Shown here piece by piece: positions 8,401 to 61,667 of a DNA stretch of 64,000 nt. This stretch comes from Sphingomonas yantingensis (GTDB lineage Bacteria; Pseudomonadota; Alphaproteobacteria; Sphingomonadales; Sphingomonadaceae): contig NZ_JACIJJ010000001.1 of the NCBI RefSeq assembly GCF_014199325.1, positions 806,001 to 870,000 of the forward strand. Direction: 5' to 3'. Each line of letters starts with the position of its first letter. Positions within the stretch are counted from its first letter, which is position 1. Under the pieces are notes generated by a model. The model had not been told where the DNA came from and searched no databases. It saw only the letters and a program-made list of their open reading frames with translations. Made by a program: the position numbers and the translations under genes.

Positions 8401-9915
8401 ATGCCGCTGACAGAAGCGAGTTTGCGCGTCATGCTGCGGCTCATGCGTAACCCAGTCCTTGCGCGTACCAGTGCCGCGCTCGCCATCGTCGCTCTCCTGT
8501 CTGCCTGTGGCGGAGGGGGCGGCGGCGCGACGGCCATCGGTGGAGGCGGCACGCCCGCGCCGACGCCCACCCCGACCGCAAGCCCGCCGACGACCGGCGC
8601 CTGTTCGCTGCGGTCGAGGCAGGACTGGGTGCTGGCGCAGATGCGGGAATGGTATCTGTTCCCCGAAACGCTGCCCGCCGCGCCCAATCCGGCGAGCTAC
8701 TCGAACCTCGACGACTGGACCGACGCGCTGACCGCGACCGCGCGCGGGCAGGGGCGTGACCGATACTTCACCTATGTCACGTCGATCGCGGAAGAGAACG
8801 CCTTCTACAATTCCGGGTCGAGCGCGGGCTTCGGCTTTCGGCTGGGCGCCGATGCGAGCACGCGCCGCGCCGGCATCCTCGAGGCGTTCGAGGGCGCGCC
8901 CGCGCTCGCCGCCGGGCTGGATCGCGGGACGGAGATCCTGGCGATCGGCACGAGCGAGTCGAACCTGCGCACCGTGTCCGACATCATCGCCGCTGAGGGG
9001 ACGGGCGGGATCAACAACGCGCTCGGTCCCTCGAACCCCGGCGTGACGCGCGTGCTGCGCGTGTCCGACGCCGCCGGCACGCGCAACGTCACGCTGGCCA
9101 AGGCCGATTACGACATTGCGCCCGTATCCTCGCGCACGGGCGTGCGCGTGCTCGACGGGCCGAACGGCAAGGTCGGCTATGTCAACCTGCGCACCTTCAT
9201 CAACCCCGCCGAACCCGCGCTGAAATCGGCGTTCGCGCAGTTCAAGGCGCAGGGCGTCCGCGACCTCATCATCGACCTGCGCTACAATGGCGGCGGGCTC
9301 TTGTCGGTGGCGGGGGTACTCGGCGACCTGATCGGCGGTGGTCGTTCTTCGAGCGACGTGCAGAGCAAGGTCGTTTTCCGCCCCGAAAAGAGCGCGGAGA
9401 ACGAGACGCGCTATTTCAACCAGCTTGCCGAGACGGTGACGCCGCGGCGCATCGCGTTCATCGGCACCGGCGGCACCGCGTCGGCGAGCGAGCTCGTCAT
9501 CAACGCGATGATCCCGTACCTCAATGCCGACGTCGCGCTGATCGGCACCAATACCTATGGCAAGCCTGTCGGCCAGATCGCGCTCGACAAGACCGAGTGC
9601 GACGACCGGCTGCGCGTCATCGCCTTTTCGGTGCGCAACCGCGACAATCAGGGCGACTATTACAGCGGCCTCGCCCCCTATCTGAAGGCGACGTGCCAGG
9701 CGATCGACGATCCCTCGCGCCCGCTGGGCGACCCGGCCGAGGCGTCGGTGCGGACCGCGCTCGGCTTCATCGGCGGGCAGAGCTGTACGCCGATCGCGCC
9801 GGGCACTGCGGCGCTCAGCGCCAGTGCCGAGCGGATTGCGGCACCGGCGGGTCGTCGCCTCGTCACGCCGGACCGGCCCAGCCCGTCGCAGCGGGAGGTG
9901 CCGGGGTCATTCTGA
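8401..9915 (+). CDS. S41-family (C-terminal processing) peptidase, probable lipoprotein
   Basis: A serine protease of the CtpA/Tsp type that would act in the cell envelope. The N-terminus after M15 (RNPVLARTSAALAIVALLSAC) is a lipoprotein signal with lipobox LSAC followed by a Gly run; starts at 8401, 8431 or 8443 are all in frame and 8443 gives the cleanest signal. After a low-complexity Pro/Thr stretch comes a cap-like segment (WVLAQMREWYLFPETLP), a PDZ-like region (GILEAFEGAPALAAGLDRGTEI), and the S41 catalytic core VRDLIIDLRYNGGG, then GTGGTASASELVINAM with the nucleophile Ser, and GTNTYGKPVGQIA with the probable Lys. The combination of lipobox, W-rich cap, PDZ and core is that of secreted S41 proteases. 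It has no partners nearby. Confidence 0.88.
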   Translation: MPLTEASLRVMLRLMRNPVLARTSAALAIVALLSACGGGGGGATAIGGGGTPAPTPTPTASPPTTGACSLRSRQDWVLAQMREWYLFPETLPAAPNPASYSNLDDWTDALTATARGQGRDRYFTYVTSIAEENAFYNSGSSAGFGFRLGADASTRRAGILEAFEGAPALAAGLDRGTEILAIGTSESNLRTVSDIIAAEGTGGINNALGPSNPGVTRVLRVSDAAGTRNVTLAKADYDIAPVSSRTGVRVLDGPNGKVGYVNLRTFINPAEPALKSAFAQFKAQGVRDLIIDLRYNGGGLLSVAGVLGDLIGGGRSSSDVQSKVVFRPEKSAENETRYFNQLAETVTPRRIAFIGTGGTASASELVINAMIPYLNADVALIGTNTYGKPVGQIALDKTECDDRLRVIAFSVRNRDNQGDYYSGLAPYLKATCQAIDDPSRPLGDPAEASVRTALGFIGGQSCTPIAPGTAALSASAERIAAPAGRRLVTPDRPSPSQREVPGSF

Positions 9916-9965
9916 TACGGGGACTTGCCCCATGGATGCCGCTCGCCTAACCAGCGGCGCAGCAA

Positions 9966-10041
9966 GGGCGGTTAGCTCAGTTGGTAGAGCGCCTCGTTTA
10001 CACCGAGGATGTCGGCGGTTCGAGCCCGTCACCGCCCACCA
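9966..10041 (+). tRNA. tRNA-Val (anticodon TAC)
   Basis: A complete 76-nt cloverleaf: acceptor GGGCGGT/ACCGCCC, D arm GCTCAGTTGGTAGAGC, anticodon stem CCTCG/CGAGG around loop TTTACAC (anticodon TAC at 9999-10001), T arm GGCGG TTCGAGC CCGTC, and an encoded CCA end. No integrase or direct repeat marks it as an insertion site. Confidence 0.97.
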
Positions 10042-10063
10042 CCATGCCGAGAGGGTTCGCACG

Positions 10064-10303
10064 TTGGTCCGCAAGCTGTCGATGGTGACGCCCCTGTTGC
10101 TGCTGGCGGCATGCGGCAGCGGCGGCGAGCAGACGGCAAACCTGACCGATGCCGATGCGGGCGGCATCGGCGATGCGCGCAGTTATGCGGGTGACAACCT
10201 CACCTCGATCGATGCGGCGGCCAACGATGCCGCGATCCAGCCGCTCGCGCCCGATACGCCGGTCGGCAATCCTGCGGCCAACGACGCGGTCGTCGCGGAA
10301 TAG
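10064..10303 (+). CDS. Small lipoprotein of unknown function
   Basis: A 79-aa product if translation begins at TTG 10064, which has GAGAGGG 8 nt upstream and gives a signal with basic residues: MVRKLSMVTPLLLLAACGSGG with lipobox LAAC. The only in-frame ATG (10082) would drop the charged residues. The mature part is acidic and Asn/Ala-rich (DADAGGIGDARSYAGD, then AANDAAIQP) with no recognisable fold. It follows the tRNA by 22 bp and precedes the MarR gene by 4 bp, so it is probably co-transcribed with the regulator. Confidence 0.65.
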   Translation: MVRKLSMVTPLLLLAACGSGGEQTANLTDADAGGIGDARSYAGDNLTSIDAAANDAAIQPLAPDTPVGNPAANDAVVAE

Positions 10304-50320: not shown

Positions 50321-52795
50321 TCAGAGGCCGACGACACCGCCGTCGTTCTTGACCACGACCACCACCGCCGAACGCGGGCGCGTCGTGGCGGGCGGGGTGG
50401 AGACGGCGCCCTGGCTGTCCGGCCACTTGCTGGTCGGCGTCGCCGCGGTGCCGTTCTCGCCCGGATGCTGGATGCCGACGAACAGCGTGCGGCCATCCGG
50501 GGTCGAATCGACACCGGTGATCTCGCACTCCACCGGCCCGACGAGGAAGCGGCGAAGGTTCGTGCCCGGTGCCGCGCCGATCCGCGTCACTACCTGCGAC
50601 GTGGTGCCGTCCGCAGCCGTGTTGGTGACGGTGCGCGTGCCGCCGTCGCCGACCCGGCCGGGGAAAGCGGCGAGCATCTGGTTGTTGGTCACGTCGGTGA
50701 AGGCGCCGTCGTCGGTCTGGATCCAGAGCAGCGGCGTCACCTGACCCGACGCGTTCGAGGGGCGGCCGAACCACAGGCCGTCGGGGCTCGACAGGTCGTT
50801 GTCGGCGGTGAGGGCCGACAGGTTGATGTTGGTGGCGTCGAGGTCCGAGCCCGCGGCGAACAGATAGATATCCCAGTTGAAGCTGGTCGCCTCGGTCGTG
50901 TCGCCGGTCTCGCGCAGGCGGATGATGTGGCCGTTGCGATTGCCGCGCGCGGTGCTCGGCGGATCGACATAGACGCGCGGGTTTGCAGCATCCGCCGTCG
51001 CGGTGGTGCGCGAGGCGTTGTTGGTGAGGGTCAGATAGACTTCGCCCGTCACCGGATTGACCGCGGTCCATTCGGGCCGGTCCATCCGCGTCGCGCCCTG
51101 CACGTCGGCGGCGAGGCGCGCGTGCGTCAGCACGTCGGCCTGGTCGGCAAAGGCATAGGTCGCGTTGGTGCTGACGACATTGCCCTGGCCGAACACCAGC
51201 GGCAGCCACTGGCCGGTGCCGTCGGCATTGAACTTCGCGACATAGAGCGTGCCGGCATCGAGATACTTGTCGCCGATCGCGAGCCGGTCGGCGTTGGTCG
51301 CATCTGCCTCGGCCCAGCCGGTCGCGGACACGAACTTGTAGAGATACTCGTTCTGCGCGTCGTCGCCCATGTAGAAGGCAGGCTTGCGCCCGGCGACGAA
51401 CGGGCCGGGCCAGCAACCCTCGTGGTTCATGCGGCCGAGCGCGGTGCGCTTGCGCGGCGCCTTGCTGCGGTCATAGGGATCGATCTCGACCACCCAGCCG
51501 AACTGATTGGGCTCGTTGCGATAGTCGGTGGTCGACGAAGTGCCGGTCGCCTGCGCGTCCCAGCGGCGATAGGTGGTGTTTGACGCATCCGCCGGGGTGA
51601 CGCTGGCCCAGGCATAGTTGCCGTTGGTGCTGGTGACGCCGTAGCGGCTGAGCGCGGTCACTTCCTTGGGCGTGCGGCGCGCATTGTCGGTGGCGGCGGG
51701 GCGGCGGAAATAGCCGGCCCAATTCTCCTCACAGGTGAGGAGCGTCGCCCAAGGGGTCGAGCCGTTGGCGCAGTTGTTGATCGTGCCGCGACCCGCGGTG
51801 CCGCCGGTCGAATAGGGCGTGACGAGCAGTGCCGAACCGCGCACCGGGCCGCTGATGTCGACCGCAGTGTTCGGGGTGACGCGGCGGTTGAAGGTGCTGT
51901 CCTGTACATAGGCCCAGCCGGCGGTGCCGCGGACGAGCTCCACGGCCGACACGCCGTGCGCCTCGATCTCCTTGAGCGCTTCGGCCTCCGGGCGGGGGCC
52001 GGCGGCCACGTTGGTGGGGCCGCTGGCATGAAGATAGGCGACGGTGATGTTCTCGTGATTCTGGACGAGAACGCCGCGCGTGTTGCTGGTGTCGTCACGC
52101 GCGCCGGCGGCGTTGAGCCCGAAATAGTGTAGCGCGTCGCCGTGGTCGCCGATGCGCGAGCCATAGCCGGTGTCGGTGCCGTCGTTCTTGAACGCGGCCA
52201 CGTCCTTGACGATCGGATCGCCCAGACGCGTCAGCACGCCGACCGAATAGCCCGTGGGGACGGTGACGACGTCGTTCTTGTTCTTGGCGACCGCGGTGAA
52301 GCCGAGCGCGGCGGGGGTGACGCTCACGGTCGTCTCGGCCGAGGCCTGAAGCCCCTGCTGGTCGGTCGCGATATAGCGGAAGACGAGCGGGGTGGCAGCC
52401 GAAACCGCGGGCGCGGTGAAGGTCGCGGTGGCGGTATTGGCGTTGGTGAGCGAGACGGTCGGCCCCGACACCTGCGTCCAGGCCGAGGTGACGATCCCGC
52501 CGTCGTCGGTGACCGTGCTGGTCAGCGTGACCAGACGCCCGGCCGACGCCGATCCGCTCGACCCCGCCGTCACGACCGGCGCGGTGTTGTTGCCGTTGCC
52601 GCTGCTATTGCTGTCGCACGCGGCGAGCACCGAGCCGCCGAACACCGCGATCGCCGCGGCCGACACGCCGCTCTTCAGCGTGTCGCGGCGCGAATAGCGG
52701 CGATCGACCAGATCGTTCAGCGACGGATTGCTGGTCGGATTGGTGTCGATATCGCCGTCGGAATAGCCCGACTCGAGTTCAAGCATCTCACTCAT
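50321..52795 (-). CDS. phoX: PhoX-type alkaline phosphatase, Tat-exported, with Ig-like insertion
   Basis: A DUF839/PhoX phosphatase of 824 aa that releases phosphate from organic esters outside the cytoplasm. I start it at ATG 52795 (GGGGA 8 nt upstream); ATG 52810 would add five residues. Twin arginines (YSRRDTLKSG, 36-37) and a lipobox-like LAAC60 mark a Tat signal. Residues about 70-160 form a PKD/Ig-like domain (GRLVTLTSTVTDDGGIVTSAWTQ, TFTAPAVSAATPLVF) before the catalytic propeller. The latter has NHENITVAYLHAS, TCEENWAGYF and GRMNHEGCWPGPF, DGLWFGRP and RRFLVGPVECEITG. It sits next to the T2SS genes; some PhoX proteins are T2SS substrates, a role I infer by position. Confidence 0.9.
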   Translation of the reverse strand: MSEMLELESGYSDGDIDTNPTSNPSLNDLVDRRYSRRDTLKSGVSAAAIAVFGGSVLAACDSNSSGNGNNTAPVVTAGSSGSASAGRLVTLTSTVTDDGGIVTSAWTQVSGPTVSLTNANTATATFTAPAVSAATPLVFRYIATDQQGLQASAETTVSVTPAALGFTAVAKNKNDVVTVPTGYSVGVLTRLGDPIVKDVAAFKNDGTDTGYGSRIGDHGDALHYFGLNAAGARDDTSNTRGVLVQNHENITVAYLHASGPTNVAAGPRPEAEALKEIEAHGVSAVELVRGTAGWAYVQDSTFNRRVTPNTAVDISGPVRGSALLVTPYSTGGTAGRGTINNCANGSTPWATLLTCEENWAGYFRRPAATDNARRTPKEVTALSRYGVTSTNGNYAWASVTPADASNTTYRRWDAQATGTSSTTDYRNEPNQFGWVVEIDPYDRSKAPRKRTALGRMNHEGCWPGPFVAGRKPAFYMGDDAQNEYLYKFVSATGWAEADATNADRLAIGDKYLDAGTLYVAKFNADGTGQWLPLVFGQGNVVSTNATYAFADQADVLTHARLAADVQGATRMDRPEWTAVNPVTGEVYLTLTNNASRTTATADAANPRVYVDPPSTARGNRNGHIIRLRETGDTTEATSFNWDIYLFAAGSDLDATNINLSALTADNDLSSPDGLWFGRPSNASGQVTPLLWIQTDDGAFTDVTNNQMLAAFPGRVGDGGTRTVTNTAADGTTSQVVTRIGAAPGTNLRRFLVGPVECEITGVDSTPDGRTLFVGIQHPGENGTAATPTSKWPDSQGAVSTPPATTRPRSAVVVVVKNDGGVVGL

Positions 52796-52899
52796 TGATC
52801 GATTCCCCATAGCGTCCTGTCGGGCAGGCGAGCCCCCGGTCCCTCTGTTGCCTGTGGCGGTGCCAGCTTACGCGCGCATGCACAATGCGTTACCGTCGT

Positions 52900-52979: not shown

Positions 52980-53495
52980 ATGGAGCCCGAAAAGCTGCCC
53001 CCACCCGATCCCGCGCCCGGATCGCCGCCAAGCCTGACCGACCGGCTGAGCGCGGCGGCGCGGCGGAAACCGGACGCGCCGCGGCGGGGGCTGCCCGCCG
53101 GGATGTTGCTGGCCGGGGCGCTCTGGACGGGGTCGTCGCTCTGTGCCGGGGCAATCAGCTATCTCGCGACCGCCCGGATCGCCGCGATGAGCCGGGATGC
53201 GGCCGAACCCGACCCGGTCCGGATCGAGCGGCGGGCACTCGTGAACCTCGGGGCTACCAGTTTCTCGGCGCAGGTCGATCGCATCGCCCGCCTGCTGCCG
53301 CCCGAAGCGCGGCTGCGATCGCTGGAGGTCGATCGCCAGGACGAACGGCCGCGACTGCTCGCCGACATCGCGACGCCCGATCCGGACCGGCTGCGCGGCG
53401 CGCTGGCGAGAGCGGGAGGCGAAGGGTCGCTACGCGTCGTTAACGAGCGGCGCGGAGACGGGGTGATGATCGTTTCGATCCGGGGCGAGCCGTGA
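52980..53495 (+). CDS. PilN/GspL-C-like inner-membrane protein
   Basis: A 171-aa bitopic protein from ATG 52980. A Pro-rich cytoplasmic start (MEPEKLPPPDPAPGSPPSL) leads into one membrane helix (PAGMLLAGALWTGSSLCAGAISYL in parts, about 40-62) and a periplasmic alpha/beta segment (FSAQVDRIARLLPPEARLRSLEVDRQD, DRLRGALARAGGEGSLRVVNERRG). The layout is that of PilN or the C-terminal half of GspL, without the actin-like cytoplasmic domain. It is the first of three genes with 4-bp overlaps, convergent with gspD. Similarity is by shape, not by sequence identity that I can state. Confidence 0.62.
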   Translation: MEPEKLPPPDPAPGSPPSLTDRLSAAARRKPDAPRRGLPAGMLLAGALWTGSSLCAGAISYLATARIAAMSRDAAEPDPVRIERRALVNLGATSFSAQVDRIARLLPPEARLRSLEVDRQDERPRLLADIATPDPDRLRGALARAGGEGSLRVVNERRGDGVMIVSIRGEP

Positions 53496-53944
53496 ATCGC
53501 GGGCTGCTGATCGGCGGGCTGGCGGGCATGCTGTTGTCGATGGTCCCTTGGTGGACGGCCTTTCGCAATCTCGACAACCTCGATCTGGCGCGCACGCTGG
53601 CGGCGCGGGAATCGGCGCGACGCGGACCGGCCGATCGACTGGCCGATGCGCCGTGGCGGCTGGCCGCGGGGTCGGCGGGCGCGGCGCAGGCGGCAGTGGC
53701 GCGCCGGGTGCGCGCCGCGGCGAAGGCGAACGGCGTGCTGGTCGAAACGCTCAAGGCCGCCGAGCCGATCGGACCGGGTATCGCCCGGATCGAGCTATCC
53801 ATGTCGGGACCGGAAAAGGCGGTGCTGACGCTTGGCGATGCGGTCGAGCGCGGCGGGCGCGGCGTTCGCTGGGAGAACTGGGAACTTGCGGCGGTGCCGG
53901 GCGGCGTGCGGCTGATGGGCACGGTGGCGATCGCGTGGCGGTGA
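53492..53944 (+). CDS. GspM-like (T2SSM_b type) inner-membrane protein
   Basis: A 150-aa protein from GTG 53492, overlapping the previous stop as GTGA. Single N-terminal helix (MNRGLLIGGLAGMLLSMVPWW), then a coiled region (NLDNLDLARTLAARESARRG) and a ferredoxin-like periplasmic domain (VRAAAKANGVLVETLKAAEPIGPGIARIELSMSG). This resembles the short GspM variant (PF10741 class) and PilO. Together with its neighbours it forms a minimal assembly platform. It is distinct from the longer gspM at 59722. Confidence 0.65.
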   Translation: MNRGLLIGGLAGMLLSMVPWWTAFRNLDNLDLARTLAARESARRGPADRLADAPWRLAAGSAGAAQAAVARRVRAAAKANGVLVETLKAAEPIGPGIARIELSMSGPEKAVLTLGDAVERGGRGVRWENWELAAVPGGVRLMGTVAIAWR

Positions 53945-54333
53945 ACCGCGGCATCCTCGTTTTCCTCGCAGCGGCGATCGGCGTTCCGCTGGCGTTCGCG
54001 CTGCCGCGGTTGTTCGAGAAGCCGCCGACGCTGCCGACAGTCACGTTGGCGCCGGTCGTCTGGGCCGCGCCGCCGCTGCTGTCGGCCGCGCTCGAACGTC
54101 CGTTGTTCGACGCGCCGGCAGCGGCGGAGGCACCCGCCGACGCCCCCGAATTGGTCGGGATCGTCGGTCGGCTCGATCAGGATGCGGTGGCGATGGTGCG
54201 TGGACGCAACGGAGCGATGCGGACGCTGCGGCCGGGCGAGGGCGTCGACGGCTGGCAGTTACGCAGCCTCGCGATCGACGCGGCCTATTTCACGCGGGGG
54301 ACCCAGTCGACGCGGGTCGCCGTCGCCGACTGA
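53941..54333 (+). CDS. GspC/PilP-like HR-domain protein
   Basis: A 130-aa protein from GTG 53941, overlapping the previous stop. N-terminal helix (MNRGILVFLAAAIGVPLAFA), a short Pro/Ala linker, then a beta-rich domain resembling the GspC homology region or PilP (LERPLFDAPA, LVGIVGRLDQDAVAMVRGRNG, LRPGEGVDGWQLRSLAIDAAYF). GspC-like HR domains dock onto the secretin N0 domain. It has no PDZ. It ends 7 bp from the convergent gspD stop. Confidence 0.62.
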   Translation: MNRGILVFLAAAIGVPLAFALPRLFEKPPTLPTVTLAPVVWAAPPLLSAALERPLFDAPAAAEAPADAPELVGIVGRLDQDAVAMVRGRNGAMRTLRPGEGVDGWQLRSLAIDAAYFTRGTQSTRVAVAD

Positions 54334-54340
54334 ACGATCC

Positions 54341-56422
54341 TCAATAGATGCCGTCGATCTCGACCGTCAGCCGCGGGGCAGGCGGGTTGAGGAGCAGGCT
54401 GCCCTTCTGCGTCGTCGCCGCCTCGATGCCGCGGAGCCGCTGATAGCGTTCGGCGGCGGCGGCGGCGGTGGCGTCGGGGTCGCGCAGGATCGTGGGCTTC
54501 AGGAAGATGAACAGCGTCCGCTTCTGCCGTTGCTCCTGTCGCGATTTGAACAGCTCGCCGACAACCGGAATGTCGCCGAGGATCGGCACTTGGCTCTTGG
54601 CGCGGATATAGTCGTCGTTGATGAGCCCGCCGAGCACGATCGTCCGGCCGTTGTCGGCCAGCACCGTCGTGTTGATCGCGCGGCGGTTGGTGATGAGGTC
54701 GGCGGCCTGGTTGAGCTGCGTCTGCGCGATGGTCGAGGCTTCCTGGCTCACCTCCAACCGGATCGTGTCGCCGGCATTGACACGCGGCAGGACGCGCAGG
54801 GTAATGCCCACGTCCTTGCGCTCGATCGAGGTATAGGGCGCCGCGCCGTTGTTGTTGGTGAGCACCGATCCGGTCACGAACGGCACTTCCTGCGCCACCA
54901 CGAACTCGCCCACCTTGTTGTCGAGCACCGTCACCGACGGGGTGGAGAGCAGGTTCGCCTTGGTCGAGGTGCCGAGCGCCTGGACGAGGATCGAGAAGTC
55001 GTTGCCGAAGGCGATGTTGCCCGTAAGGCCGCCGGTCAGCAGCGCCCCGGCGGGCACACCCAGCGTCTGGAGGATGGTGCCGAGCGACACGCCCGCACCC
55101 GGCTGGCCGAAGCTGGTCGCCACGCCCTCCACCTGGTCGAGCACGGTGCCCGCGCTGCCGATCTGTACCGCCAGCCGCTCCGCCTCGTCGCCGGTGATCT
55201 CGGCGATCGCGGCCTCGAGCAGCACCTGCGGCCGGCGGACGTCGAGGTCAGCGATGAGCTGGTCCATCCCCGCCATCGCGGTGGGCGTGCCCCTCACCAC
55301 GATCGCGTTGATGTCGGGCGCGGGCTGGACGGTAAGGTCGGGGGTCGAGAAGCCCTGCGGCGTCGCCTGTCGCTCGGTCTGGCCGACGGTCGAGATGCTG
55401 GTGCCGCCCGCGCCCGCGCCGTTCATGCCGCCGCCCGCGCCCAGCGACTGTTGGTTGCTGTTGTTGACGAGGCCCGCGAGCGCCGCGGTCGGGCTGCGGT
55501 TCGCCTGGGTGCCGAGGCCGCCGCGGGTGCCGCGCGACGACAGGCTCTGCGCCACAGCATTGGTCGGCTGTGCTTCCTGGCCGAGGACGCCGCGCAGCAC
55601 CTCGGTCACGCTTTCGGCGTCGGCATAGTTGAGCCGAAAGGTGCGGGTGATCGGCGTCGCGCCGCCCGGTGTGTCGAGCGACAGCGCGATCCGGCGCGCC
55701 TCCGCAACTGCCGAGGGGGTGCCGCGCACCACGACCATGTTGCTGCGGGCGTCGCCGGCAACACGCGCGCCGCCCGCCTCGCCGTCGCCCAGCACCTGGC
55801 CGATCGCGGCGGCCACGTCGGCGGCGGATCCGTTGCGCAGCGGGATGACGGCGAAGCTCTGCCCGCCGCCGCTATCGAGGCTGCGCACCAGCCCCTCGAT
55901 GCGGCGGACATTGTCGGCATAGTCGGTGACGACGATCGCATTGGGGCTGGCGAGCGGCTCGACCGAGCCGAAGCTCGCGATCAGCGGCCGGGCGATCCGT
56001 GCGGCCTCTGCCGCCGGCACGTTCGACAGGCGGATCATCCGTGTCGTCATTTCCTGGCCCGAGGCCGACCGGCGCACGCCGCCGTCGCGCACCGCGTTGG
56101 CCGCGGGCACGATCCGCCACGCCCGGCCCGAGCGCAGCGCCGCGAAGCCGTTGGCGCGCAGGACTGACTGGAACAGCTCCCACACCCCGTCCGCCGACAG
56201 CGGCTGAGCGGAGGTCACGGTGACCACGCCCTTGACCGCCGGGTCGAGGATCAGCGTGCGGCCGGTCAGGCGCGAGATCTGGTCGGCGACATCGGCGATC
56301 TCGATCCCGCGCATGTTGACGACGATGTCGCCCGGCGGCTGCTGCGCGGCGAGCGGCGACAGCGCCGTGGCGGCAAGGGCGCAGGCGAGCGTGGTGCGGC
56401 GAAGGGCTTGGATCACGGACAT
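54341..56422 (-). CDS. gspD: Type II secretion secretin GspD
   Basis: The outer-membrane channel of the T2SS, 693 aa, with a signal peptide (MSVIQALRRTTLACALAATALSPLAAQ). N0 domain VVNMRGIEIADVADQISRLTGR, N1-N3 repeats (SNVPAAEAARIARPLIAS, IPLRNGSAADVAAAIGQV, RTFRLNYADAESVTEVLRG) and the secretin core LLSTPSVTVLDNKVGEFVVAQEVPFVTG ... KRTLFIFLKPTILRDP. The N-terminal region contains a Gly/Asn-rich insert (SNQQSLGAGGGMNGAGAGGTS). It is the last gene of the minus-strand gspG-H-I-C-D operon, 4 bp after gspC, and meets the platform cassette convergently. Confidence 0.95.
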   Translation of the reverse strand: MSVIQALRRTTLACALAATALSPLAAQQPPGDIVVNMRGIEIADVADQISRLTGRTLILDPAVKGVVTVTSAQPLSADGVWELFQSVLRANGFAALRSGRAWRIVPAANAVRDGGVRRSASGQEMTTRMIRLSNVPAAEAARIARPLIASFGSVEPLASPNAIVVTDYADNVRRIEGLVRSLDSGGGQSFAVIPLRNGSAADVAAAIGQVLGDGEAGGARVAGDARSNMVVVRGTPSAVAEARRIALSLDTPGGATPITRTFRLNYADAESVTEVLRGVLGQEAQPTNAVAQSLSSRGTRGGLGTQANRSPTAALAGLVNNSNQQSLGAGGGMNGAGAGGTSISTVGQTERQATPQGFSTPDLTVQPAPDINAIVVRGTPTAMAGMDQLIADLDVRRPQVLLEAAIAEITGDEAERLAVQIGSAGTVLDQVEGVATSFGQPGAGVSLGTILQTLGVPAGALLTGGLTGNIAFGNDFSILVQALGTSTKANLLSTPSVTVLDNKVGEFVVAQEVPFVTGSVLTNNNGAAPYTSIERKDVGITLRVLPRVNAGDTIRLEVSQEASTIAQTQLNQAADLITNRRAINTTVLADNGRTIVLGGLINDDYIRAKSQVPILGDIPVVGELFKSRQEQRQKRTLFIFLKPTILRDPDATAAAAAERYQRLRGIEAATTQKGSLLLNPPAPRLTVEIDGIY

Positions 56423-56426
56423 GTCT

Positions 56427-57227
56427 CTAGCGTAGCGGGACGGTAAGCGTCACGGGCTTGCCGTCGCGAAGGATCTGGACCTGCGCCGCGCCGCTCGCCT
56501 GTGCAGCGGCGAACGCGGCCTGGTCGGCGGGGCCGCGGCCGAGTGCCTGCCCGTTGACCGACTGAATGACGTCGCCCGCGCGCATCCCGGGCATCGACCC
56601 GCTGCCGATGCGATAGCCGCCCTCGACCGGCGCGGCATCGAGCCGCTGGAGGATCTGCGCGGCCCCCTGCGGCGGCGGGACGGCGGCGGTGCCGGGGACG
56701 GGGACGCCGTTGCTGGTCGCGGGCGGTGCCGCGGCGGGGGGCGGGGCGCCGGGCGTGCCGGGTGCGCTCGCCGCGGCGGCGGGGTCGGGGAGCGCTAGAT
56801 ACTCAATCCGCCCGCCATTGTTGATGAGGATGCGGTCGCGTTGGATCGAACTGATCGTCGCCCCGCCCAGCGCCTCGCCCACCCGCACCGCGCGCGGGGT
56901 GCCGCCAGACTCGCTGACGTACGCGACGGCGAAGCTCTGCGGGATCGCGAAGACGACGCCCTTGAGGACGAAGGCGAGGCTGGTCGGCTGCGCCTGCTCG
57001 GTCTGCGTCGCCTGACCGAAGGGTTGCCAGCCGATCGCGGGCGACAGGTCGGGCGGCGGCACCGGCCGCGCGCCGGAAGGGACGGTGATCGCGCCCTGAC
57101 CTGCATGACCCGCCAGTCGCCACGTCAGGCCCGCCAGCGCGAACGCGACCGACACGACCATCGCGCCGGTGACGAGGTCGAGCGCAAGCCGCTGTTGCCG
57201 CGGGGTAAGGTCGAGCGTGTGCTTCAT
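56427..57227 (-). CDS. gspC: Type II secretion protein GspC
   Basis: The inner-membrane clamp that links the platform to the secretin, 266 aa. ATG 57227 gives MKHTLDLTPRQQRLALDLVTG, a membrane helix (GAMVVSVAFALAGLTWRL), the HR domain (LAFVLKGVVFAIPQSFAVAYV...ISSIQRDRILINNGGRIEYLALPD in parts), a Pro/Ala linker and a C-terminal PDZ (YRIGSGSMPGMRAGDVIQSVNGQAL) that helps choose substrates. Its start overlaps the gspI stop as ATGA. Confidence 0.93.
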   Translation of the reverse strand: MKHTLDLTPRQQRLALDLVTGAMVVSVAFALAGLTWRLAGHAGQGAITVPSGARPVPPPDLSPAIGWQPFGQATQTEQAQPTSLAFVLKGVVFAIPQSFAVAYVSESGGTPRAVRVGEALGGATISSIQRDRILINNGGRIEYLALPDPAAAASAPGTPGAPPPAAAPPATSNGVPVPGTAAVPPPQGAAQILQRLDAAPVEGGYRIGSGSMPGMRAGDVIQSVNGQALGRGPADQAAFAAAQASGAAQVQILRDGKPVTLTVPLR

Positions 57228-57580
57228 GCCGGCCCCGCGTCCACGAAACCATCGAGCGATGCAAGCGGCGACGCGCCCGGCGGCCCGGTCATTTCGTACA
57301 CGTCGATGCGCACGCGGCGAATCTCGGCATCGGCGGTCGCGCGCTCGGCGACTGCGACGCGCCAGCGGCGGCCGAGCATCTCGACCTCGTTCGCGCCGCC
57401 CGCGCGGGCTTCGAGTTCGGCAAGCCGGTTCTCGGCCACCCACATCGCCGCCTGTCGCCCCTCCATCGCGCGCGTCGAATCGATATGCGTCTCGACCGTA
57501 CGGATCAGGCCGACAGTGGCGATCGCGAGGATCGCGAGCGCGACCAGCGCCTCGATCAGCGAGAAGCCCTCTTCTTTCAT
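57224..57580 (-). CDS. gspI: Type II secretion pseudopilin GspI
   Basis: A 118-aa minor pseudopilin. The short leader MKEEG is followed by the prepilin cleavage site G|FSLIEALVALAILAIATVG with Glu5. The globular domain (WVAENRLAELEARAGGANEVEMLGRRW in parts) matches GspI. It overlaps gspH and gspC by 4 bp each. With GspJ and GspK it should form the pseudopilus tip, but those genes are not in the window. Confidence 0.92.
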   Translation of the reverse strand: MKEEGFSLIEALVALAILAIATVGLIRTVETHIDSTRAMEGRQAAMWVAENRLAELEARAGGANEVEMLGRRWRVAVAERATADAEIRRVRIDVYEMTGPPGASPLASLDGFVDAGPA

Positions 57581-58164
57581 GTCGCGGGGACGACGCGGGC
57601 AGTGAGCCCGTCATAGGCGACGCTCGCCGACTGGCCGCGCTCGGCGATGATCGCGGTCAGCGGCTTGCCCGACCCCTCCGGCCCCAACACCACCGGCGGG
57701 CGGGCGGACAGGCGCATCGTCATGCCGCCGGGCAGCGCATGGAAACCGAGCGCCTCGCTGGCGAGCGGCTGCCAGGTCTTCCCGTCGAACCGCGCGAAGC
57801 CATAGCCCGATTTCTCGGCGGTAAAGGCGACGAGGCTGTCGCCTAGCATCGCGTCGTCGGCCGCGGCCTGAAGCCGGTCGGCCAGCCGCTGCGCCTCGCT
57901 CCCGACCGACGGCGCGCGCGTGGCGGCACCGATGCCGAGCGTGACGGCCCCGGCGGCGACCGCGATGATCGACAGGACGATCAGCATCTCGATCAGAGTC
58001 ATGCCGGTTTCAGCAGGTCGTACGCTCGCCGAACACGCCCCGTCACTCCGGACTTGTTCCGGGGTCCACCAACCCGCAAGCGTCGATGCCGCTGGGTGCG
58101 CGGCACGGTGGGCCCCGGAACAAGTCCGGGGTGACGAAAGGGAAAGGGCGGCCATCCGGCCCAT
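57577..58164 (-). CDS. gspH: Type II secretion pseudopilin GspH, extended leader through a repeat
   Basis: The pseudopilin core is PAETG|MTLIEMLIVLSIIAVAAGAVTLG with Gly-1 and Glu5, then a GspH-type globular domain (LADRLQAAADDAMLGDSLVAFTAEKSG). The problem is the leader: no start codon lies between Gly-1 and the REP-like repeat (58041-58136) just upstream. The only in-frame starts that keep the cleavage site are ATG 58164 or 58155, 5-14 bp after the gspG stop, so the leader of 54 residues is translated through the repeat. Starting at ATG 58002 would remove the cleavage glycine. A normal leader may have been lost when the repeat entered. Confidence 0.7.
   Translation of the reverse strand: MGRMAALSLSSPRTCSGAHRAAHPAASTLAGWWTPEQVRSDGACSASVRPAETGMTLIEMLIVLSIIAVAAGAVTLGIGAATRAPSVGSEAQRLADRLQAAADDAMLGDSLVAFTAEKSGYGFARFDGKTWQPLASEALGFHALPGGMTMRLSARPPVVLGPEGSGKPLTAIIAERGQSASVAYDGLTARVVPAT
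58041..58136. repeat. REP-like inverted repeat between gspG and gspH
   Basis: 30-bp arms CGTCACTCCGGACTTGTTCC... (58041-58070) and ...GGAACAAGTCCGGGGTGACG (58107-58136), two mismatches, same class as the repeat near 24.9 kb. It lies inside an operon and inside the open frame that gives gspH its start. Confidence 0.88.
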
Positions 58165-58168
58165 CGCC

Positions 58169-58639
58169 CTACTTCTTCCCGTCGAGGTCCGCGTCGAGAC
58201 CCTCGCCGCCGGGCTTTCCGTCCTTGCCGAGCGACTTGAGCGTGAAGGCGCTGCCGGTCGAGGTGTAGGCGTAAGGATTGCCCCACGGGTCGAGCGGCAC
58301 CTCGCCCAGATAACCCTCGCCCGACCAGTTGGACGGGAGCGGCGGGGTCGAGGGCTTATCGGCCAGCGCCTTCAGCCCCTGCGCGGTCGTCGGATAGCCG
58401 CCATTGTCGAGGCGGTACATCTTGAGCGCGGCGGAGATGGTGCGGATGTCGGTGTTGGCGACGGTGACGCGCGCCTCGTCAGGCCGGCCGATGACGTTGG
58501 GCACGATTAGCGCGGCAACCAGCGCGATGATCGCCAGCACCACGATCATTTCGACCAGCGTCAGGCCCGCTTCGCTGTCGCGGGGGAATTGCGCAGTATC
58601 GCGCCGGCTGTCATGAAACTGTTTCAATAGGATGTGCAT
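58169..58639 (-). CDS. gspG: Type II secretion major pseudopilin GspG
   Basis: The main pseudopilus subunit, 156 aa from ATG 58639 (GGGGCGGCG upstream). Leader MHILLKQFHDSRRDTAQFPRDSEAG, cleavage before LTLVEMIVVLAIIALVAALIVPNVIG with Glu5. The globular domain has ANTDIRTISAALKMYRLDNGGYPTTAQGL, DPWGNPYAYTSTG and the C-terminal calcium-site Asp residues (GEGLDADLDGKK), as in GspG. First gene of the gspG-H-I-C-D operon. Its start is within 10 bp of the divergent gspL start. Confidence 0.94.
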   Translation of the reverse strand: MHILLKQFHDSRRDTAQFPRDSEAGLTLVEMIVVLAIIALVAALIVPNVIGRPDEARVTVANTDIRTISAALKMYRLDNGGYPTTAQGLKALADKPSTPPLPSNWSGEGYLGEVPLDPWGNPYAYTSTGSAFTLKSLGKDGKPGGEGLDADLDGKK

Positions 58640-58648
58640 CGCCGCCCC

Positions 58649-59725
58649 ATGCGTCGTCTCGATGAAAACAATGTGACAGCTGCCCCCGCACCATCGGCGC
58701 TCATCATAGCCGAGGGGGCGGGCGCGGCAACCATGCTGGTGCCGGGGGAGGCCGTACGCCTGCTCGCCGTCGACCTGCCGCTGCCGACGCGCGCCAGGCG
58801 GATCGAGGCACTGCCCTTCGCGGTCGAGGAGATGATCGCCGATCCATTGGACGCGGTGCATCTGGCGCTCGGTACGGAACTGGCCCCCCGCCGCTTTCTC
58901 GTCGGTGTCGTTCGTCATGCGCAGATGCTGGCGTGGATCGAGGAAGCCGCCGCCGCGGGCCATCCCAATGCCGCCTTCGTCCCCGACGCGCTCGCGCTGC
59001 CGCGGCCCGATGCGGGCGAATGGGCGGTCGAGCTGGGCGACACCCGCGCGGTGGTGCGCAGCGGTGACGGCACCGGCTTCGCGATCCCTGCGCCGTTGCT
59101 GCGGCCGGCGTGGGAAGCGGCAGGGCGGCCCGCGATCCGCAATTACGGCGTGGCCCTGCCCGAGGATATGGGCGCGCTGCCCGCCGAACTCGGCGAGCTG
59201 TCGCTGGCGCGCCGCATCGCCGAGCCGGCGCTGGACCTCAGGCAGGGCGCTTATGCCCGGCGCCGAGCGGCGGCGCTGCCCGGTTGGGGACGGCGGCTGT
59301 TCTGGGTCGGCGCGATCGGGCTGACCGCGCATGTCGGCATTGCCGCGGCGGACACGGCTATGCTCCGCTCGATCGCCGACCGGCGCGAGGACGATACGCG
59401 GATGCTCGTCGCGAGCGCCGCGCCCGGCGTGCCGACCGGCACCGACGATCTGGCGGGCACAGTCGCCGACCTGCTGCCCGAGCCGAAGCGGTACAGCGCC
59501 TTCCTGCCGCTCCTGTCGCGCGTCTCGACCGTGCTCGCGCCGATGAACGGGCAGGTGGCGGTGCGGTCGATCGGGTTTCAGGGGAGCGCGCTGGTGATCG
59601 ACCTCGACGCATTCGCGCCGGGCATGGCGGGGCGCATCAACGGCGCGCTCACCGACGCGCGGGTTTCGGGGACGGTGACGACGCTGCCCGATGGCGGCCT
59701 GCGGCTGACGGCGAGGGGCGCATGA
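58649..59725 (+). CDS. gspL: Type II secretion protein GspL
   Basis: The inner-membrane platform protein that binds the GspE ATPase, 358 aa from ATG 58649; GTG 58634 is in frame but would overlap the gspG start. The cytoplasmic actin-like part (VRLLAVDLPLPTRARRIEALPFAVEEMIAD, DALALPRPDAGEWAVELGDTRAVVRSG) precedes a membrane helix near residue 220 (RRLFWVGAIGLTAHVGIAAAD) and a ferredoxin-like periplasmic domain (RYSAFLPLLSRVSTVLAPMNGQVAVRSIG). Overlaps gspM as ATGA. Confidence 0.9.
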   Translation: MRRLDENNVTAAPAPSALIIAEGAGAATMLVPGEAVRLLAVDLPLPTRARRIEALPFAVEEMIADPLDAVHLALGTELAPRRFLVGVVRHAQMLAWIEEAAAAGHPNAAFVPDALALPRPDAGEWAVELGDTRAVVRSGDGTGFAIPAPLLRPAWEAAGRPAIRNYGVALPEDMGALPAELGELSLARRIAEPALDLRQGAYARRRAAALPGWGRRLFWVGAIGLTAHVGIAAADTAMLRSIADRREDDTRMLVASAAPGVPTGTDDLAGTVADLLPEPKRYSAFLPLLSRVSTVLAPMNGQVAVRSIGFQGSALVIDLDAFAPGMAGRINGALTDARVSGTVTTLPDGGLRLTARGA

Positions 59726-60219
59726 AGATCGAGCTTCGCGATCCCCGGCTGGAAGCCGCCATCGCCCGGTTCGAGGCGTGGTGGGCGACGCTCTCCACAC
59801 GCGAGCGGGTGCTGCTGACCGTGCTCGGCGTGCTGCTGGCGGGCGCGGTGCTGGTCTACGGCGTCGTCAAGCCGCTCCAGGCCGCTCGGGCGGAGGCGCA
59901 GGCGGACATCCGCATCTACGAAACGCTGTCCGCCCGCATCCGCGCCGCGGGCACGCTCCAGCCACAGACCGCGGGCCAGCGCCGCACCGGCAGCCCCGCC
60001 GAGATCGTCCAGGCCGCCGCGCAGGCACAGGCGCTGACCGTCGCGGTCGAGCCCTCGGGCGGCGGCGTGCGTGCGGTCGTGAGCGAGGGGGAATATGCCA
60101 AGGTCGTCAACTGGCTGGCCGACGTGAACCGCTCCTCCGGCCTTGCGATCACCTCCGCGCGCATCACCAAACGCCCGACCGCCGGCATGGTCGAGGCACA
60201 GGTCAGCTTCGCGCCATGA
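59722..60219 (+). CDS. gspM: Type II secretion protein GspM
   Basis: A 165-aa inner-membrane partner of GspL. ATG 59722 overlaps the gspL stop. A membrane helix (RVLLTVLGVLLAGAVLVYGVV) follows the typical start FEAWWATLSTRER, then a coiled segment and ferredoxin-like domain (PAEIVQAAAQAQALTVAVEPSGG, YAKVVNWLADVNRSSGLAITSARI). The standard GspM length and LSTRER motif separate it from the shorter GspM-like protein at 53492. Confidence 0.92.
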   Translation: MKIELRDPRLEAAIARFEAWWATLSTRERVLLTVLGVLLAGAVLVYGVVKPLQAARAEAQADIRIYETLSARIRAAGTLQPQTAGQRRTGSPAEIVQAAAQAQALTVAVEPSGGGVRAVVSEGEYAKVVNWLADVNRSSGLAITSARITKRPTAGMVEAQVSFAP

Positions 60220-61667
60220 CGCTCCCCTACAGCTTCGCGCGCCGCCACGGCGTCGTCCTGCGCGAGGGGGAGGGCGGGGCCGAATGCGTCTATCGCACCG
60301 GTGCCCCGCTCGATGCGCTGCTCGAGGTTCAGCGGATCGCGCCCGCCGCGCGGCTGGTGCCCGTCGCCGACGATGCGTTCGACGCCGCGCTCGGTGCCTC
60401 CTATGGCGACCGGGCGGCGCAGGCGGCGGATTTCGAGATCGACGGCACCGACCTTGCCGCGCTCGCCGACTCGGCGGCGGCGGTCGACGACCTGCTCGAC
60501 AGCCGCGACGATTCGCCCGTCATCCGCCTCATCAACGCGTTGCTGCTCGAGGCGATCAAGGAAGGCGCGTCGGACGTGCATGTCGAGACGCAGGAAAAGC
60601 GCCTCGTCGTCCGCTTCCGCATCGACGGCGTATTGCGCGACATCGTCGAGCCGCAGCGGGCGCTGGCGCCTTTGCTCGTCAGCCGCATCAAGGTGATGGC
60701 CAAGCTCGACATCGCCGAAAAGCGCGTGCCGCAGGACGGGCGCGTGACGCTCCGCATCGGCGGGCACGATGTCGATGCGCGCGTCTCTACCATCCCGACC
60801 CAGCATGGCGAGCGGGTGGTGATGCGCCTGCTCGAACGCGGGTCGATGACGCTCGACCTCGGCGCGCTCGGCATGAGCGACCGCGATCGCGCGGTGTTCA
60901 CGCGGCTCTTGGAGCGGCCGAACGGCATCCTGCTCGTCACCGGCCCGACCGGCTCGGGCAAGACGACGACGCTCTACACCGCGCTCACGAGGCTGAACGA
61001 CCGCAAGCGCAACGTGATGACGGTCGAGGATCCGATCGAATACGAACTCGCCGGCATCGCCCAGACCCAGGTCAATCCGCGAACCGACATGACGTTCGCG
61101 CGCGGCCTGCGTGCGATCCTGCGCCAGGATCCCGACGTCATCATGGTGGGCGAGATCCGCGATCAGGAGACCGCGCAGGTCGCGGTCCGATCGGCGATGA
61201 CGGGGCATTTCGTGCTCTCGACGCTTCACACCAACTCCGCGGTCGGATCGGTGACGCGGCTCATCGACATGGGGGTCGAGCGCTATCTGCTGGCACCAAT
61301 GGTCGTGGGTCTCTGCGCACAGCGCCTGGTGCGGCGACTCTGCCCGACCTGCCGGCGCGAGGATGTGGCGACGCCGGGGGATGTGGCGCTGGTCGGCGGC
61401 GGGCTTTCGGTCGGCGAGCCCGTCTGGCGCGCCGAGGGGTGCGAGGCGTGTCACGGTGACGGCTATCGCGGGCGCGCAGGGCTATACGAAGTCGTCGCGG
61501 TGGACGACCGCTTTCAGGCGATGATCCACGATGGGTCGTCGGAAGCGCAACTCGAACGCCATGCGCGCGCCGACAATCCCAGCCTGCTCGACGACGGAAT
61601 CGCCAAGCTGCGCGCCGGGATCACCACGGTCGAGGAAGTCGCGCGGGTGACGCGTGAGGAGGCTTAG
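60216..61667 (+). CDS. gspE: Type II secretion ATPase GspE
   Basis: The cytoplasmic hexameric ATPase that drives pseudopilus assembly, 483 aa. ATG 60216 overlaps the gspM stop as ATGA. Walker A GPTGSGKT (243-250), Asp box EDPIEYELAG, Walker B PDVIMVGEIRDQETA (306-320), His box LSTLHTNSA. The zinc motif C376, C379, C409, C412 (LCPTCRRE, GCEACHGDG) is intact. A short N1 domain and a DDSPVIRLINALLLEAIKEGASDVHVE N2 follow the start. Normally gspF follows gspE; here an unrelated outer-membrane protein does. Confidence 0.96.
   Translation: MTLPYSFARRHGVVLREGEGGAECVYRTGAPLDALLEVQRIAPAARLVPVADDAFDAALGASYGDRAAQAADFEIDGTDLAALADSAAAVDDLLDSRDDSPVIRLINALLLEAIKEGASDVHVETQEKRLVVRFRIDGVLRDIVEPQRALAPLLVSRIKVMAKLDIAEKRVPQDGRVTLRIGGHDVDARVSTIPTQHGERVVMRLLERGSMTLDLGALGMSDRDRAVFTRLLERPNGILLVTGPTGSGKTTTLYTALTRLNDRKRNVMTVEDPIEYELAGIAQTQVNPRTDMTFARGLRAILRQDPDVIMVGEIRDQETAQVAVRSAMTGHFVLSTLHTNSAVGSVTRLIDMGVERYLLAPMVVGLCAQRLVRRLCPTCRREDVATPGDVALVGGGLSVGEPVWRAEGCEACHGDGYRGRAGLYEVVAVDDRFQAMIHDGSSEAQLERHARADNPSLLDDGIAKLRAGITTVEEVARVTREEA

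Follow-up and report, generated by a model that had tools for sequence, protein, structure and literature searches.

A reduced GspL-GspM-GspC-like gene set facing the secretin gene of a type II secretion locus in Sphingomonas yantingensis

A T2SS locus in three blocks

The DNA considered here is a stretch of 64,000 nucleotides from Sphingomonas yantingensis (contig NZ_JACIJJ010000001.1, positions 806,001 to 870,000), referred to below as the window and numbered from its first letter. It carries a type II secretion system (T2SS) locus made of three blocks and ending at position 61667: a plus-strand cassette of three small genes, named here a1, a2 and a3, a minus-strand block gspD-C-I-H-G, and a plus-strand block gspL-M-E (Table 1). 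The a1/a2 and a2/a3 pairs each overlap by 4 bp, gspD is convergent with the cassette, and gspL-M-E is divergent from the gspD block. The three small proteins are almost certainly a reduced GspL-GspM-GspC set, in which GspL has lost its ATPase-docking domain and the GspC part, built around the homology region (HR), has no PDZ/2P region.

An earlier note, made from the sequence alone, had described three small overlapping genes facing gspD, and their coordinates and 4-bp overlaps were confirmed. The same layout is found in 5 relatives of the genus, in 11 of the 20 loci surveyed in the family (one with an intervening gene) and in 39 of the 51 named loci, and its recurrence across relatives shows that it is not due to chance. 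In the survey of the 20 family loci, short gspJ matches were not counted, the J query having carried translated upstream DNA.

Identity of the three small proteins

AlphaFold2 models of a1 and a3 were built solely from the sequences of the window and of related loci. The a1 model (mean predicted local distance difference test score, pLDDT, 81) shows a cytosolic stub of about 37 residues, a long helix (residues 38-72) that includes the membrane segment, and a ferredoxin-like periplasmic domain (residues 92-169). The periplasmic domains of PulL, XcpY and EpsL account for 7 of its top 8 Foldseek rows (best E 1.3e-3), and VIA comparisons matched it to XcpY (Z 9.6, root-mean-square deviation, rmsd, 2.7 over 77 residues), PulL (Z 9.5) and EpsL (Z 7.8). 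Designed ferredoxin-like proteins appear lower in the same list with Z 8.2 and 8.0, overlapping the a1 range of 8-10; the fold alone is therefore not decisive, and becomes so together with the profile comparisons presented below. The a3 model (mean pLDDT 88.4) retrieved the HR domains of PilP, LspC, GspC, PulC and GspB with Foldseek (best E 3.8e-3, a PilP), and its top VIA match is the HR domain of the GspC in 3oss (3oss_C; Z 9.3, rmsd 1.6 over 63 residues). For both models, every Foldseek match had an E value above 0.001.

Single-sequence Pfam scans assigned a1 to PilN in 1 of 6 members (E 0.14), a2 to T2SSM_b in 4 of 6 (best E 0.0073; the a2 of the window scored 12.5 bits against a cut-off of 21.7) and a3 to T2SSC in 3 of 6 (best E 0.0022). 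Such scans prove little by themselves because other families equalled or beat the T2SS ones in single members, DUF7017 (0.024) and DUF3157 (0.057) standing above PilN in the case of a1. Sequence searches of the PDB with the three cassette profiles gave nothing under E 0.02, the best matches being an ATP synthase b subunit for a2 (0.023), a reductase for a1 (0.064) and GspC for a3 (1.3). None of the unrelated families stands out for any of the three proteins.

Measured against the proteins that they resemble, a1 has the transmembrane helix and the ferredoxin-like periplasmic domain of a GspL without the actin-like cytoplasmic domain on which GspE docks, and a3 has the transmembrane segment and HR domain of a GspC without the PDZ/2P region, the protein stopping at the end of the HR domain. 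The earlier proposal of a GspL-C/PilN-like, a GspM-like and a GspC/PilP-HR-like protein is thus supported by the Pfam scans and hhalign and, for a1 and a3, by Foldseek and VIA. So is its count of two GspM-like and two GspC-like proteins around one secretin, to which two GspL periplasmic domains can be added.

Relation to Xps-type L-M-N proteins

Searching the family with the a3 profile revealed that other genera have T2SS of a second kind, in which E, F, G and further pilin-like genes precede L, M, N and D (L086, L088, L089, L093, L097 and others). This kind is called Xps-type here, a label of this analysis. One Xps-type M matches the NCBIfam XpsM family (1.2e-13, 51.1 bits, under the cut-off of 60), and one Xps-type N resembles GspC (6.6e-6) and PilP (0.018). 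Pfam at E<=1 returned nothing for the Xps-type L of L089, nor for two proteins in which a1 and a2 are fused; since Pfam gives no match, the name L rests on gene position, on a weak gspL match (L088, 0.0075) and on a pilM match (L092, 1.4e-4).

The cassette profiles match the Xps-type L, M and N proteins with best E values of 1.8e-17 (a1), 7.8e-12 (a2) and 1.6e-17 (a3). In hhalign comparisons, a1 aligned to Xps-type L with P 99.1 and E 9e-19, against P 1.0 for classical GspL, and a2 to Xps-type M with P 98.9 and E 3e-17, against P 34.1 and E 4e-4 for classical GspM, although the classical L and M alignments had untrimmed frame ends that possibly lowered their scores. For a3, the values were P 99.5 and E 2e-22 with Xps-type N, against P 79.8 and E 1.5e-5 with classical GspC. 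Judged by these profiles, the trio is homologous to Xps-type L-M-N, and a1 and a2 group there rather than with the GspL and GspM of their own locus.

The a1 alignment spans columns 203 to 345 of the Xps-type L profile (348 columns in all), so that the cytoplasmic part is missing. This head is lost only partly in four loci (L080, L082, L087 and L094), and such forms suggest a stepwise loss. A tree of the concatenated parts, rooted on five Xps-type rows, separates the 20 cassettes as one clade (100/100), but leaves 10 of 22 inner branches open and does not place the partial-domain a1 forms at the base, so that it does not itself demonstrate a stepwise loss. In four other loci (L074, L076, L077 and L078), a1 starts with a GspF-N-like stretch (hhalign P 96.9, E 1.8e-10, 34% over 44 amino acids).

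Standard T2SS genes and secretins of the genome

Among the standard genes of the locus, gspD, C, G, I, L and M scored above their Pfam cut-offs, gspE is GspE by NCBIfam (631.4 bits against a cut-off of 630.25), and gspH is weak (GspH domain E 0.016, N_methyl 1.3e-6). All eight had been listed by the earlier note, and the list holds, weakly so for gspH. A T2SS also exists in the non-pathogenic laboratory isolate Sphingomonas sp. LM7, for which PMC11340318 tabulates transposon insertions in gspL and gspH.

The note had also reported gspF, gspJ, gspK and the prepilin peptidase as absent, which is correct for this locus but does not extend to the genome, a 3.56-Mb assembly of 11 contigs (C1, C3, C5, C6 and others; labelled G000). 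A gspF gene lies at C1:1033043 (L005:8825-10051), about 165 kb from gspE and away from other T2SS genes. Contig C6 carries gspJ (C6:67208) and gspK (C6:68008; E 8.4e-4, under the curated Pfam cut-off), adjoined by a GspN-like gene (PF01203, E 2.6e-6, 28.1 bits, cut-off 29.6). Prepilin peptidases of the A24 family are encoded at C5:16639 and C3:425970, the latter in a Tad-type cluster. Loss of F, J and K is thereby ruled out. Because other genomes of the family (L095, L105, L108) keep D-C-I-H-G, L-M-E-F, N and J-K next to one another, the T2SS gene set of this genome is scattered rather than lost.

Three secretins are encoded in the genome: GspD and two others, whose neighbouring frames read as Tad-type (C3:428k) and type III secretion system (T3SS)-type (C3:307k) clusters. 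A second T2SS secretin was therefore rejected, and GspD is the single one found, as the note had stated for the window. No second complete T2SS cluster to which the cassette could belong was found, the genome having yielded no second T2SS secretin. The cassette is not itself a complete Xps-type T2SS either, which would hold its own secretin, ATPase and pseudopilins in one operon. The T3SS-like cluster with its own secretin spans C3:298000-317900 of G000 (L031), its frames having been read by eye.

Table 1. Features of the T2SS locus and its phoX neighbour (positions in the window; aa, amino acids)
Feature	Position	Strand	Basis or remark
phoX, PhoX-family phosphatase with PKD domain and Tat (twin-arginine translocation)/lipobox-like N-terminus (by eye)	50321..52810	-	divergent neighbour of the cassette; possible substrate
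a1, headless GspL, 171 aa	52980..53495	+	profiles, AlphaFold2 model, structure matches
Short cytosolic helix of a1 (model residues 19-28), PSLxDRL-type	53031..53063	+	model; S18 and L19 nearly invariant (n=31 sequences)
a2, GspM of the T2SSM_b/XpsM kind, 150 aa, GTG start	53492..53944	+	profile comparison; 4-bp overlaps on both sides
a3, membrane helix and HR domain, GspC/XpsN-like, no PDZ, 130 aa, GTG start	53941..54333	+	profiles, model
HR domain of a3, about residues 66-130, expected N0-binding part	54136..54330	+	model; 3oss_C match
gspD	54341..56422	-	Pfam and NCBIfam; no further T2SS secretin found in the assembly
N0 domain of GspD, residues 35-101	56120..56320	-	PF21305, 2.1e-20; predicted dock for a3 and GspC
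gspC, T2SSC (HR) and PDZ-like parts	56427..57227	-	Pfam
gspI	57224..57580	-	Pfam
gspH, open frame; mature part from near 58002, start uncertain	57577..58164	-	Pfam, weak
gspG	58169..58639	-	Pfam
gspL, full-length, PF05134 domain; start possibly further in	58634..59725	+	Pfam, NCBIfam
gspM	59722..60219	+	Pfam
gspE, ATPase	60216..61667	+	NCBIfam

Conservation and distribution of the cassette

All three proteins are encoded in 49 of the 51 named loci, and the remaining two are truncated at contig ends; the 4-bp overlap of a1 and a2 is present in every one of the 49. Natural fusions join a1 to a2 (L087:10329-11543 and L094:9771-10979) and a2 to a3 (L084:8626-9678 and L133:9096-9773); the ranges are those of open frames from stop to stop, except for the last. 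The ratio of nonsynonymous to synonymous substitution rates (dN/dS) is below 1 for a1, a2 and a3 in 12 of 13 pairs: ten pairs of relatives gave 0.11-0.40 for a1, 0.11-0.32 for a2 and 0.09-0.32 for a3, and two pairs that include the window gave higher values (0.25-0.75). In the remaining pair, L128/L129, a3 reached 1.26, which is uninformative as the two are near-identical. By these ratios the cassette is under purifying selection, and the fusions, overlaps and ratios together support the view that the three proteins form one working complex.

In the genomes sampled, the cassette occurs with a classical T2SS. The order sample comprised 396 genomes (the order and family samples overlap), with classical gspL called at E<=1e-20 and a1 at E<=1e-4. 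Classical gspL was found in 23 genomes and a1 in 29, and all 23 gspL genomes carry a1. Five of the six additional a1 matches are full-length Xps-type L proteins (G320, G227, G138, G146 and G363; frames of 352-365 amino acids), and the sixth, in G229, is weak (5.7e-5), lies apart from any cassette or T2SS gene and was taken as chance. No cassette was found in the other 373 of the 396 genomes. A 2x2 test of the co-occurrence gives p about 9e-38, shared ancestry being ignored. Among the members of the genus listed, 20 genomes have both gspL and a1 and 20 further ones have neither.

In the family sample of 298 genomes, classical gspL scored below 1e-30 in 24, of which 20 have the cassette, although one of these (G144) shows just an a3 fragment at a contig end. 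Another genome, G340, was counted as devoid of gspL; one of its contigs, 3 kb long, carries both a3 and gspD. Matches to a3 were found in 36 family genomes, comprising 21 cassettes, 11 other T2SS-like loci and four loci (L091, L101, L103 and L104) where no T2SS gene was recognised nearby. At L091, whose genome has no classical gspL match, both a2- and a3-like matches lie at 9535-10196. In L082 and L095, other genes separate the cassette from gspD. A class-wide search for a2 in 385 genomes found G000 and G005, with weak matches (E 6.7e-5 to 0.009) in 10 others.

Two records deserve a separate mention. An intact-looking cassette is present at L164 9033-10517 (G768, contig 15), on a contig other than that of gspL. 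A Sphingomonas-like cassette is also carried by L123, a record titled Bacillus sp. 2B10 that is probably mislabelled or contaminated.

A probable mosaic cassette in this strain

Compared with the related loci L112 and L114 in bins of 300 bases, phoX and the T2SS genes of the window are mostly 0.90-0.98 identical (lowest value 0.85). The exception is a run of four bins, 53000-54199, with 0.63-0.75 identity. Finer bins place the divergent stretch at about 53020-54099, with identities of 0.45-0.80 and sharp edges. Identity rises again over the HR end of a3 (0.87-0.93 with L112 and 0.77-0.88 with L114), and gspD also stays similar. Synonymous divergence (dS) amounts to 0.55-0.97 for the cassette genes, compared with 0.23-0.32 for gspM, L and C, and the window/L112 comparison has the largest identity gap among 91 pairs (48 sequences) with gspD identity >0.87. 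It looks as though a1, a2 and the membrane and linker part of a3 were exchanged while the HR domain was kept. Alternatively, the stretch may be a hot spot of change.

Comparison with known platforms

The gene order L-M-N is that of Xanthomonas. The cassette resembles the XpsC(N)-XpsL-XpsM set in this order, in the GspL transmembrane segment and ferredoxin-like domain, in the XpsM-like M and in the HR-type C. Unlike the Xps system, it has no cytoplasmic GspL domain and no E, F, pseudopilins or D of its own, and the gspD opposite it is that of a classical T2SS equipped with a separate L, M and PDZ-bearing C. According to PMC11981180, XpsN has been renamed XpsC as the GspC homologue, and the XpsC-L-M trimer associates with XpsE and XpsD.

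Another likeness is to the GspB/OutB/ExeB scaffold, as a3 combines a membrane helix and an HR domain beside the machine's own GspC, with a fold match to 4wfw (Z 5.9). By contrast with GspB, a3 has GspL-like and GspM-like partners and does not match PF16537, and no GspA or GspS was recognised beside the cassette, no genome-wide search having been made for these two. The trio also recalls PilN-PilO-PilP, with a single-helix ferredoxin-like pair and an HR/PilP-fold protein, the PilN-like member having no fused actin-like domain. It differs in that no pilM adjoins the cassette (phoX lies upstream), a3 has no cysteine for a lipobox, and the presumed partner is a T2SS secretin. Finally, the GspL-GspM-GspC of the same locus have the same folds and the same presumed N0 partner, and the a3 profile matches their GspC at 4.3e-6, but their GspL is full-length, their GspC carries a PDZ domain, and they have strongly diverged from the cassette.

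The folds of the parts are thus known. In the literature searched, with subscription journals mostly outside its scope, no description was found of a complete classical T2SS accompanied by a headless L-M-N trio. Evolution has here split the structural half of a GspC-L-M complex from the ATPase-docking half and has retained it alongside one and the same secretin across many species. The cassette would thereby separate the effect of the complex on the secretin from the motor, which bears on the link between the T2SS secretin and the inner-membrane platform and on the way in which that platform engages and releases. The comparison also supplies names for small proteins that are unassigned, or under cut-off, in NCBIfam and Pfam.

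Possible roles of the trio

The trio very probably acts with the GspD that it faces. The best overall explanation, for which we judge the chances evenly balanced, is that it forms a reduced, ATPase-free L-M-C set docking on the N0 domain of GspD, where it scaffolds or anchors the secretin. In this scheme, a1 and a2 would form a pair by way of their membrane helices and ferredoxin-like domains, a3 would join them, and the HR domain of a3 would dock on N0 beside GspC or in alternation with it. With neither an ATPase dock nor a substrate-binding domain, the trio would not drive secretion; it would keep GspD tethered to the inner membrane while the machine assembles or between its cycles, as GspB does elsewhere, or PilNOP in type IV pili. 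That scaffolding or anchoring is the main role is proposed tentatively, at just under even confidence. It is favoured because the trio keeps the parts that would form the trimer and contact D, without those that hold E or bind substrates (PDZ/2P), and because of the GspB precedent, this genome having no GspB match. According to PMC9239104, the HR domain of Dickeya GspB binds the secretin N0 more tightly in vitro than that of OutC, and GspB anchors the secretin. The search for GspB (PF16537) gave no match in the genome at E<=1, a weak test in that 0 of 14 control genomes reached the cut-off.

Several observations weigh against this scaffold. The complete genome G232 has a classical T2SS in which no cassette was found, so that the cassette is dispensable there, nor was it found in three genomes that are less complete or cut at contig ends, namely G318 (95%) and G352 (76%), both of the same genus, and G126 (89%, on a 9-kb contig). 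In G158, G187 and G313, all from the family, roughly 10-25 kb separate the cassette from gspD. Other genes split the two in G212 and G144, the cassette of L158/L164 is without any T2SS gene for about 9 kb around, and phoX lies between cassette and gspD in 10 of the 51 named loci. Many functional T2SS are not known to have GspB or pilotins, so that there is no gap that needs filling.

The earlier note had suggested an alternative platform or a regulator competing for N0. The former does not hold as a full platform on its own, since a1 has lost the ATPase-docking domain. As for the latter, a3 may compete with GspC for N0. Two regulatory schemes were weighed. In one, rather improbable in our view, cassette subunits would join the full GspL/GspM/GspC ring, which would then have fewer ATPase docks and a tuned secretion. 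The folds that a1 and a3 share with parts of GspL and GspC fit such a mixed ring, as do the co-occurrence with classical gspL, the single T2SS secretin that must serve both sets, and the GspF-N-like start of a1 in four loci, which suggests a contact with the inner-membrane machine. However, a1 and a2 are farther from classical GspL and GspM than from Xps-type L and M, which makes shared interfaces doubtful, and the fusions observed join cassette members only. In the other, which we consider improbable, a3 would displace GspC from N0 in the idle machine, keeping the pore shut or preventing futile engagement of the ATPase. PMC9239104 reports in vitro competition between the HR domains of Dickeya GspB and GspC for one and the same N0, and an a3 reduced to HR without PDZ, next to an a1 without ATPase dock, would suit such a lock; against it, no regulatory gene was recognised beside the cassette.

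The neighbourhood of phoX raises a further scenario, quite improbable, in which the cassette is a substrate adaptor for the PhoX-type phosphatase. In 43 of the 51 named loci, phoX lies next to the cassette in divergent orientation, and the two stay together in the 10 of these where gspD is on the far side. The title of Putker 2013, as cited in PMC5082522, links T2SS and phosphatase in Pseudomonas putida, and in Caulobacter a lipoprotein made in phosphate starvation needs the T2SS for its release (PMC2996285). Yet the authors of that paper infer an independent sorting of the lipoprotein itself to the surface, where a protease secreted by the T2SS then releases it. In other genera, phoX mostly does not adjoin the cassette (matched in 2 of 20 family loci), and a3 has no PDZ/2P domain. 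Between the window and L112, phoX is about 95% identical in DNA against 67% for a1-a2; the two therefore do not change together. That the cassette is a decaying relic of a lost Xps-type system is highly improbable: its clear homology to Xps-type L-M-N and the loss, in part or whole, of the GspL cytoplasmic domain would agree with decay, but the three proteins persist in nearly all named loci and are found with a T2SS, and the relic reading was rejected on the dN/dS values below 1 and the co-occurrence with classical gspL.

A broader and fairly unlikely reading is that sphingomonad T2SS are two-platform machines, in which one secretin would be served by a working GspC-L-M-E-F platform and by an exchangeable, ATPase-free holding platform, alternating or combined in a mixed ring; the holding platform would descend from an Xps-type L-M-N set in which GspL lost the head that docks the ATPase. 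The idea that the holding module is exchangeable is suggested by the mosaic cassette of this strain.

Apart from the cassette, an inverted repeat of 37 nucleotides (58041-58136, 86% complementary, arms 22 nucleotides apart) lies between gspG and the mature part of gspH.

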